In this document: one piece after another, positions 35,272-56,680 of the stretch
Numbering within the stretch: the stretch's first letter is position 1
Layout of the letters: every line of letters starts with the position of its first letter
Source of the DNA: an uncultured Prevotella sp.
GTDB lineage: Bacteria > Bacteroidota > Bacteroidia > Bacteroidales > Bacteroidaceae
Direction: 5' to 3'
Length of the DNA stretch: 58,261 nucleotides
Assembly (NCBI GenBank): GCA_905236165.1
Contig: CAJOOC010000063.1
Span: 1 to 58,261, forward strand
The notes under the pieces: generated by a model
Seen by the model: only the letters and a program-made list of their open reading frames with translations
What the model was told of the DNA's origin: nothing
Databases searched by the model: none
Position numbers and translations under genes: made by a program

Positions 35272-36444
35272 TTAAAGATTTATGTTATCCAACAATTGTA
35301 TGTATCTCTCTATTGCCCCTTCTATCTCATGCAGGCAGATATATTCGTCGGCGGAGTGGGAACGTGAGGACTGTCCGGGGCCGAGCTTGAATGACGGGAA
35401 TCGCATCAGGGCCTGGTCGGAGAGCGTGGGAGAGCCGAAGGGCTTCATGCCCATCCCGATGCAACGCTGTATGAGCGGATGCTCTGCAGGGATTGACGAG
35501 GAATGCAGATGGAAGGAACGTGCTGTCAGCTCGCTCTTCATCTTGCTCTGCAGGAACTGGAACACCTCTTCGTTGGTGTAGTGTTCGTTGGTGCGCACAT
35601 CGATGACAAAGCGGCACTCATCGGGTACTACGTTATGCTGCGTGCCGGCGTTAATCACCGTGCATTGCATCTTCGTGGGACCGAGCAACGGCGATACCTT
35701 CTCAAACTGATAGTCGCGCAGGAAGAGCAGGTCGTCAAGGGCCTCGTTGATGGCATTGATGCCCTCGGAGCGTGCTGCATGTCCGCTCTTGCCGTGAGCG
35801 ATGCCGTCGATGACCATCAGTCCGCGCTCTGCTATGGCAGGCTGCATACCGGTGGGTTCGCCGACAATGGCCACGCTGATGGGTGGAAGCATGGGCAATA
35901 CGGCACGTATGCCGTCCTTGCCGCTCACCTCTTCCTCGCAGCTGGCCAGATAGAGAAGATTGAACGGGAACGGTGGTTGTGTCAGCGGGTGAACCGATGG
36001 GCACCCTTGGGCAGGGCTTCCTGTTAGTGGGTGGACCGCCGGGCACGCAGGGGCTGGGGACAGTTGCCTGAACACCTGCAAGAGGCTCACCAGACCGCCG
36101 CCACAGTCGTTGCTGCCCAGGCCGTAGAGACGTTGTTCGGTGTGGCTGTTGCCCTGTGCATCAGTCACTTCCACGTCTTCAATGGATGGCGTGAAAGGGT
36201 CGCGTGTCCATGTCGCAACGGGTTTAACGGTGTCGATATGGGCATTGAGCATGATGGTGGGACGCGCATCGTCCCAGTCCTGAGACTTTATCCAGATGTT
36301 GTTGCCAAGCCGCTCAGGCTGATAGCCATAATCGCGGATAGCCTCTTCGAATATGTCGGCAGCAGCCTTCTCGTCGCGACTGACACGCGGGGTGGCTATG
36401 AGTCGCTTCAGAAGCGTTACTGCATCGGTAGTATATGATGTCAC
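35272..36444 (-). CDS. M20 family metallopeptidase (ArgE/DapE-like)
   Basis: MLNAHIDTVKP; GLGSNDCGGGLVSLLQVFRQL; LASCEEEVSGKDGI; GEPTGMQPAIAERGLM. Confidence 0.9.
   Translation of the reverse strand: MTSYTTDAVTLLKRLIATPRVSRDEKAAADIFEEAIRDYGYQPERLGNNIWIKSQDWDDARPTIMLNAHIDTVKPVATWTRDPFTPSIEDVEVTDAQGNSHTEQRLYGLGSNDCGGGLVSLLQVFRQLSPAPACPAVHPLTGSPAQGCPSVHPLTQPPFPFNLLYLASCEEEVSGKDGIRAVLPMLPPISVAIVGEPTGMQPAIAERGLMVIDGIAHGKSGHAARSEGINAINEALDDLLFLRDYQFEKVSPLLGPTKMQCTVINAGTQHNVVPDECRFVIDVRTNEHYTNEEVFQFLQSKMKSELTARSFHLHSSSIPAEHPLIQRCIGMGMKPFGSPTLSDQALMRFPSFKLGPGQSSRSHSADEYICLHEIEGAIERYIQLLDNINL
35980..36061 (-). repeat. Two imperfect tandem 42-bp repeats inside the M20 peptidase gene
   Basis: tgtcagcgggtgaaccgatgggcacccttgggcagggctt / tgttagtgggtggaccgccgggcacgcaggggctggggac; encodes SPAPACPAVHPLTG / SPAQGCPSVHPLTQ. 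Confidence 0.85.
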
Positions 36445-36503
36445 GAATTGTCTGATTAGAACTTAAAAGGAAGAACTCAAGCGAAAACTGGGGACAATGA
36501 CTG

Positions 36504-48769: not shown

Positions 48770-48919
48770 ATGAGTAACAAAGCAAAAAAAGAAGCAAAGA
48801 AGGCTGCCTATGCAGCCAAGAAGGAACAGGAAGGCCGCAAGGTGATAAATTGGATTTTCGGCATCCTTATCGCGCTGGGTGTGCTGTATGCCATCTATTC
48901 CATGTACATCATGGCATAA
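48770..48919 (+). CDS. Small single-TM protein (49 aa), absent from the ORF track
   Basis: ATG at 48770: MSNKAKKEAKKAAYAAKKEQEGRKVINWIFGILIALGVLYAIYSMYIMA*; Lys-rich N-terminus then a TM helix. Confidence 0.7.
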   Translation: MSNKAKKEAKKAAYAAKKEQEGRKVINWIFGILIALGVLYAIYSMYIMA

Positions 48920-48923
48920 CAAA

Positions 48924-49002
48924 TTGAGAATTGAAAATTAAGTTGGTGTATGGTATAGTACCCTGGTAATCATAATTCTCAATTCTCAATTCTCAATCTT
49001 CA
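48924..49002. repeat. ATTGAGAATTGAAAATT and AATTCTCAATTCTCAATTCTCAA tracts in opposite orientation
   Basis: Read directly; the right tract abuts the ATG of the CYTH gene (cttcaATGgag). Confidence 0.9.
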
Positions 49003-49554
49003 ATGGAGATAGAACGCAAATACCTCGTAAAGCGAGATGGGTCGTTCCGGTCAATGGTGGTGTCATCTACGGACATCGCCCAGGGATATATGGCCGTTCA
49101 GGGCGCCACGGTGCGCATACGTCTTCGTTCTCGTAGCGCTGCAAGCGCCTTTCGTAAGAGCGGCAGCACCGCTTCGTCTTCGTCCCCAGAGGGCGTCGCC
49201 TACCTCACCATCAAAGGCCCGTCCCGTGACGGAGGACTGTCGCGCTATGAGTTTGAGCGCGAGATACCCCTTGCCGATGCAGAGGAAATGCTGCATCTGT
49301 GTAAGGGCGGACTGGTGGAGAAGACGCGCCATATCGTGGAATACGAGGGACACGTCTGGGAGATTGATGAGTTTCATGGAGCCAACGAGGGACTGCTCAT
49401 GGCAGAGGTCGAGTTGGCTGAGCCTGACGAGGCAGTCATCTTGCCCCCCTTCATCGGACCAGAGGTGACAGGCGATCCACACTTCTATAATAAGCGCATG
49501 CTGACAGACCCCTATCCCAACTGGAGGCACTTGCTCCCAGAGGAATACAGGTAA
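49003..49554 (+). CDS. CYTH domain (adenylate cyclase class IV/triphosphate tunnel metalloenzyme) protein
   Basis: MEIERKYLVK; ATVRIRL...AYLTIKGPSRDGGLSRYEFEREIPLADAEEML; WEIDEFHGANEGLLMAEVELAEPDE. Confidence 0.93.
   Translation: MEIERKYLVKRDGSFRSMVVSSTDIAQGYMAVQGATVRIRLRSRSAASAFRKSGSTASSSSPEGVAYLTIKGPSRDGGLSRYEFEREIPLADAEEMLHLCKGGLVEKTRHIVEYEGHVWEIDEFHGANEGLLMAEVELAEPDEAVILPPFIGPEVTGDPHFYNKRMLTDPYPNWRHLLPEEYR
49126..49197 (+). repeat. 72-bp in-frame hairpin-module insert in the CYTH gene
   Basis: CGTAGCGCTGCAAGCGC identical to 56599-56615, with TTTCGT following at both sites. Confidence 0.88.
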
Positions 49555-56544: not shown

Positions 56545-56580
56545 AGGTTTATTTTTTATTTGGTTAAACAATATAGTTTT

Positions 56581-56680
56581 CGTCTTCGTTTTCGTCTTCG
56601 TAGCGCTGCAAGCGCGTTTCGTCTTCATAGGGACGAATGTCCCGCTTCGTAGACAGGAGTCCTCCTGCCGCTTCGTCTTC
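56581..56680. repeat. Array of small hairpins with TTCGT linkers
   Basis: GCGCTGCAAGCGC (56603-56615), GGGACgaatGTCCC (56630-56643), CAGGAGtcCTCCTG (56654-56667), each flanked by TTCGTA/TTCGTC-like linkers. Confidence 0.88.

Follow-up and report, generated by a model that had tools for sequence, protein, structure and literature searches.

The gene of a CYTH-domain protein in an uncultured gut Prevotella carries an in-frame insert that most probably arose when a two-module segment of a clade-specific palindromic repeat was copied into a turn of the enzyme, adding 20 codons net. The gene lies on contig C63 (58,261 nucleotides, analyzed over its full length and called the window below) of a draft genome of 2.5 Mb in 171 contigs (G000; 83% complete, 4.5% contamination). 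The best-known cases of palindromic repeats that become protein sequence are those of Rickettsia, Wolbachia and other intracellular bacteria and of some REP-rich species. The family described here, for which we found no earlier report, turned non-coding DNA into new protein sequence in core enzymes of gut Prevotella, such as TtcA, DnaX, MetH and homoserine dehydrogenase.

The CYTH gene (49003–49554, plus strand) is an open reading frame for 183 amino acids. The product matches the Pfam CYTH family (34.9 bits) and retains the invariant acidic and basic residues of CYTH proteins in a 43-sequence alignment. Between R42 and A66, and hence between the motifs RLR and AYLTIKG, this protein contains 23 residues (SRSAASAFRKSGSTASSSSPEGV), where nearly all orthologues contain three (DEK, DDK or GDK). 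Alignments of approximately 110 orthologues (about 30 from the genus and 80 from public genomes), the codon view and a loop of low pLDDT delimit the inserted segment to codons 43–65 (49129–49197, plus strand), which corresponds to a net gain of 20 codons (60 bp). The first-pass annotation, made from the sequence of the window without database searches, had correctly recognized an in-frame insert in this enzyme but put its size at 24 codons. The case that this annotation named against itself, in which most close orthologues would carry the segment, does not apply: none of the approximately 110 aligned orthologues contains it, and the site is also empty in the CYTH orthologues of two relatives that carry the repeat (G008 and G134). 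In a search of 150 genomes, most CYTH matches started around query residue 65 and their N-terminal portion formed a separate alignment, the pattern expected when the matched orthologues lack the insert. Since the closest orthologues are only about 70–74% identical in protein sequence, the junctions of the insert are inferred.

AlphaFold2 (43 sequences) predicted a CYTH fold with a mean pLDDT of 86.8. Residues 47–50 and 52–61 have a pLDDT below 50, the insert joins strands 35–43 and 64–71, and the remaining fold is confident. In this model the insert is a low-confidence turn or loop between two strands, and the conserved residues and the predicted fold are retained, in agreement with the earlier reading that the insert sits between strands and keeps the frame. 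The CYTH protein is presumably made and active with the insert in place. Three orthologues (L071, L088 and L100) contain extensions of 8–9 residues at the same turn, which would fit an ordinary variable CYTH loop that resembles the repeat by chance. However, the DNA of these extensions contains no repeat modules, the extensions are unrelated to the insert in the window, and the 20 additional residues occur in no orthologue. Together with an array match far above shuffles and above other stretches of the CYTH gene (see below), these observations leave this explanation with next to no likelihood.

The first hairpin module of the insert has the core CGTA-GCGCT-GCA-AGCGC with an intact stem (49132–49148, plus strand), as claimed in the first-pass annotation. 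This 17-mer (CGTAGCGCTGCAAGCGC) is also found as an exact copy in a non-coding array at 56599, again as claimed; 0.13 matches would be expected even with three mismatches allowed. Elsewhere in the genome we found two further exact copies and two with one mismatch, and the reversed 17-mer, used as a control, gave no match genome-wide. Local alignment of positions 49118–49203 to the fetched arrays revealed a 55-bp ungapped match with 49 identities between the CYTH gene (49123–49177, plus strand) and an intergenic array of the same genome (C167:15337–15391). This match scores 80, compared to 27 for the best of 100 shuffles and 19–26 for other stretches of the CYTH gene, excepting one stretch that overlaps the insert.

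Both stems of the C167 copy are perfect (GCGCT/AGCGC and GGAGC/GCTCC), whereas the second stem of the CYTH copy (49151–49177, plus strand) has decayed. With two perfect stems, the array is probably nearer to the original state than the CYTH copy. The stem decay suggests that copying proceeded from the array to the gene. According to the alignment with C167, the second module is a decayed GGAGC-GTCA-GCTCC hairpin; we rejected AGCGG/CCGCT as the original stem, since this pairing is probably secondary and the earlier reading of an AGCGG-CAGCA-CCGCT hairpin probably a misreading. Taken by itself the second module is a weak hit: within the window the covariance model gives it 16.4 bits and an E value of 0.53, and decayed CYTH modules cannot be called genome-wide with this model alone. 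The third proposed hairpin, CCC..GGG, is a plausible module remnant (TTCGT-CCC-CAGA-GGG-CG, 49179–49195, plus strand) that resembles the TTCGTAGCCCGCAGGGCGTTTCGT modules of relatives, but it is a weak assignment made by direct reading only.

The C167 match begins inside the native codons L41–R42, and its first six bases (CTTCGT) overlap these codons. In the window, RLR is encoded by CGT CTT CGT, which is identical to the repeat spacer, compared to CGT CTG CGT and similar codons in close orthologues. This resemblance of native codons to the CTTCGT spacer, along with runs of TTYYCG hexamers that expand in intergenic regions of the window genome, would be consistent with a local expansion in which the native CGTCTTCGT codons slipped and chance did the rest, with no copying from elsewhere. 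Such an origin is very improbable, because a 9-bp native repeat cannot yield a match of 55 bp in which two distinct hairpin modules follow each other in the C167 order.

The hairpin repeat is a clade-specific family of gut Prevotella. Each module consists of TTCGTAG, a short hairpin and CGYTTCGT, and modules are joined directly or by CTTCGT or related TTYYCG hexamers with a period of mostly 19–25 nt. The shell TTCGTAG ... CGYTTCGT is constant, and the enclosed stem of 4–7 bp is variable in sequence, with loops of 2–4 nt. We examined the genome by pattern, by model and through targeted stretches. Counts of exact flanks only, which are lower bounds, gave 66–72 copies in the window genome, 21 in G008, 52 in G134 and 29 in G181; the remaining 296 genus genomes sampled contain at most three such copies each. 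The reversed flank pattern found no copies in the window genome. The scenario of a match that is not enriched genome-wide, which the first-pass annotation had listed as a second point against its own reading, is at odds with these counts. A related search pattern also recovered several modules with paired stems from G319 and G414, two genomes that belong to a different genus of this bacterial family. The window itself contains two arrays. One (56579–56676, plus strand) combines CTTCGT spacers with the modules GCGCT-GCA-AGCGC and GGGAC-GAAT-GTCCC and a CAGGAG/CTCCTG hairpin. The other (1037–1167), identified by the covariance model and pattern matches, contains modules on the minus strand (1037–1063 and 1078–1100) and on the plus strand (1111–1131 and 1142–1167). 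A second hairpin element (GTAGCCAGGGACGTGGGCGTCTCGCCCGCGAC) is often found at the 3′ end of module arrays (L003, L044, L160, L162 and L163).

Among copies that were picked by their flanks alone, 93% (relatives) and 89% (own genome) contain stems of at least 4 bp, compared to 2.5% and 2.3% after shuffling. We counted 43 different 5′ arms in the relatives and 20 in the own genome. Among 34 copies aligned without gaps, pairing holds in 98.8% of the cells (shuffled: 63.9%), with a covariation score of 0.907 (shuffled: 0.210). These results show that the shell is constant while the palindrome is free to vary as long as the two arms match. The strong covariation of short stems and the proximity of the arrays to genes (median distance approximately 55 bp) could also point to functional RNA or terminator-like signals, with intragenic copies as side effects. 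This explanation is quite improbable, however. Modules in gaps between tandem genes show no strand preference (58 vs 55), an orientation that does not support a terminator-like role, the hairpins are not followed by a T run, and an Rfam search of the window matched no family. Only 23 of 105 examined arrays lie inside a roughly called open reading frame, far below the expectation for random scatter over a mostly coding genome. The family mainly accumulates in intergenic DNA, with no strand preference, as a selfish or mutational element would and unlike a strand-specific signal.

The resemblance to Rickettsia palindromic elements (RPE; Ogata et al. 2000, 2002, as cited in PMC2996958 and PMC3733652) that was proposed in the first-pass annotation holds at the level of the class. 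As with RPEs, copies of one repeat are found both between genes and, in frame, within them, and in CYTH as well as in other genes the insert is absent from orthologues and located in a tolerant loop. The empty sites, the 49/55 match to an array and the recurrence in other genes (see below) support the claim that an intergenic repeat has become protein sequence. In contrast, identity with the Rickettsia element itself is not supported: RPEs of intracellular alphaproteobacteria terminate in CGTC (PMC3733652), whereas the modules of gut Prevotella carry no CGTC tag, are flanked by TTCGTAG and CGYTTCGT and contain hypervariable stems. Palindromic amphipathic repeat coding elements (PARCEL, PMC2996958) also consist of coding DNA with dyad symmetry that has spread within genomes. 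These elements are 25-aa (75-nt) tandem domains mainly of membrane and surface proteins (PMC2996958), whereas the inserts described here comprise one to three short modules, show no shared 25-aa period and occupy loops of housekeeping enzymes.

Di Nocera et al. (2013, PMC3733652) described GTAG and CGTC repeats, some of them intragenic, and list GTAG repeats from other phyla and not from Bacteroidetes. The modules share several traits with GTAG REPs: GTAG at the 5′ foot of a short hairpin (part of our search pattern TTCGTAG, and invariant in set A1), stems of 4–7 bp, loops of 2–4 nt, frequent clusters, and intragenic copies that encode 20–30 residues. These traits would agree with GTAG-tagged REPs that are moved in trans by a REP-associated Y1 transposase (RAYT), which also made the CYTH insertion, and the window genome does encode one RAYT-like Y1 protein (G000:C58:36983–37222; L067 and L167; 208 aa frame). 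However, this gene is not adjoined by any module within the fetched 4.1 kb. Y1_Tnp has no match in G008, and G134 and G181 are not among the matching genomes (all three are drafts), whereas nearly all of the 106 genus genomes (of 190) with Y1_Tnp matches lack the repeat. Furthermore, REP families are defined by their stems, while here stem sequence changes freely within a single family (43 and 20 different 5′ arms). Mobilization by a RAYT is thus unsupported by the distribution of Y1_Tnp matches and by the surroundings of the G000 gene, and we consider this explanation unlikely. Because of the constant 3′ shell CGYTTCGT, the hypervariable stems and the lack of a visible RAYT partner, we do not assign the family to a named one; we call it GTAG-like and place it outside the named families. 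Our literature search, which covered little of the subscription literature, found no report of this hairpin family in Prevotella or Bacteroidetes.

The CYTH gene is one of several genes with translated modules. By scanning open reading frames that span the fetched arrays and then checking the protein families, we found at least 17 further loci with in-frame modules in four carrier genomes, representing roughly 16 protein families besides CYTH. In G000 these loci encode a Reg_prop/AraC-type regulator and a DUF6298 protein; in G008, a HemC-CobA-HemD fusion, a nucleotidyltransferase and GalM; in G134, DnaX, MetH, homoserine dehydrogenase, TtcA, an auxin-efflux-type carrier, a PD-(D/E)XK nuclease, a GH88 protein and, as a weak case, a TPR-like protein; and in G181, TtcA, ArgE, riboflavin synthase and an AMP-ligase/acyltransferase. 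Comparison with solved structures placed the inserts in alignment gaps for homoserine dehydrogenase (43 residues vs 4), ArgE (32 vs 5), GalM (38 vs 9) and MetH, where the excess amounts to 11 residues.

The same TtcA insert occurs in G134 and G181, the corresponding loop is empty in G000 and G001, and in G008 the same point holds a different, longer set of other repeats. Between G134 (L234) and G181 (L235), 4 of the 81 bases of this insert differ (95% identical), compared to 21% in the flanking codons (P = 4 × 10⁻⁵). Three of these four changes are synonymous; by inspection, three lie in the loops of hairpins, and the stems are unchanged. The contrast between insert and flanks could reflect gene conversion between repeat copies, hairpins under constraint, or insertions that happened separately and recently. 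Module number also differs between species: the coding tail of riboflavin synthase contains three modules in G134 (L231 2700–2826) and one in G181 (L242 1970–2062).

In the confirmed genes other than CYTH, 26 of 26 modules are antisense to the coding strand, with all three frames represented; two sense matches in L242 lie upstream of the start codon and are outside this count. The CYTH modules, which are sense to the coding strand, are the exception within the series. Three frames are open in antisense copies and two in sense copies; on this basis, 16 independent antisense arrays would occur with P ≈ 0.6¹⁶ = 3 × 10⁻⁴. Since this bias exceeds what the frame difference accounts for, selection on the encoded peptide seems likely from these sequences.

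Copying of array segments into genes, which we consider the most probable origin of the CYTH insert, may proceed by recombination or by template switching, with the TTCGT spacer as the sequence common to both sites. Entry into the CYTH gene would have occurred at a shared CTTCGT, given native RLR codons of the form CGT CTN CGT. Among distinct modules, five of the six reading frames are open in 86–91%, and the sixth contains the TAG of GTAG. Because five of the six frames are free of stop codons in about 90% of cases, some intragenic insertions survive, and they may do so in loops or tails that can accommodate additional, mostly polar residues. Sites in related species that are full, empty or filled differently form a natural series, in which one can ask by what route a selfish-like repeat gets into genes, which loops admit it and whether the residues it adds are neutral. 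The combination of a fixed shell with freely varying paired stems also raises the question as to how such palindromes arise. A tentative answer, of which we are more doubtful than confident, is that the stems are continually rewritten inside the fixed shell with the arms kept complementary, for example by arm-to-arm template switching. The arrays might then be a running source of in-frame peptide cassettes in core enzymes, so that related species carry different modules, and different numbers of them, in sites such as the TtcA loop and the riboflavin synthase tail.

Other intergenic repeat families of these genomes seem to be translated in frame as well, giving peptides such as HSSQFTVHSS, RACSPEHLLERKN and SPLFKRGAGGE (L290, TtcA of G008; L239, ArgE, and L240, ArgS, of G181), and at times occupy the same loop as the hairpin modules. 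An ArgE-like gene in the window (35290–36450, minus strand) contains a loop with a different, tandem-like peptide (CPAVHPLTGSPAQGCPSVHPLT) where the G181 orthologue has a repeat-like insert. The spacer directly upstream of the CYTH gene (48919–49002) is made up of successive AATTCTCAATTCTCAATTCTCAATC-type repeats, which represent a further intergenic family of low complexity.
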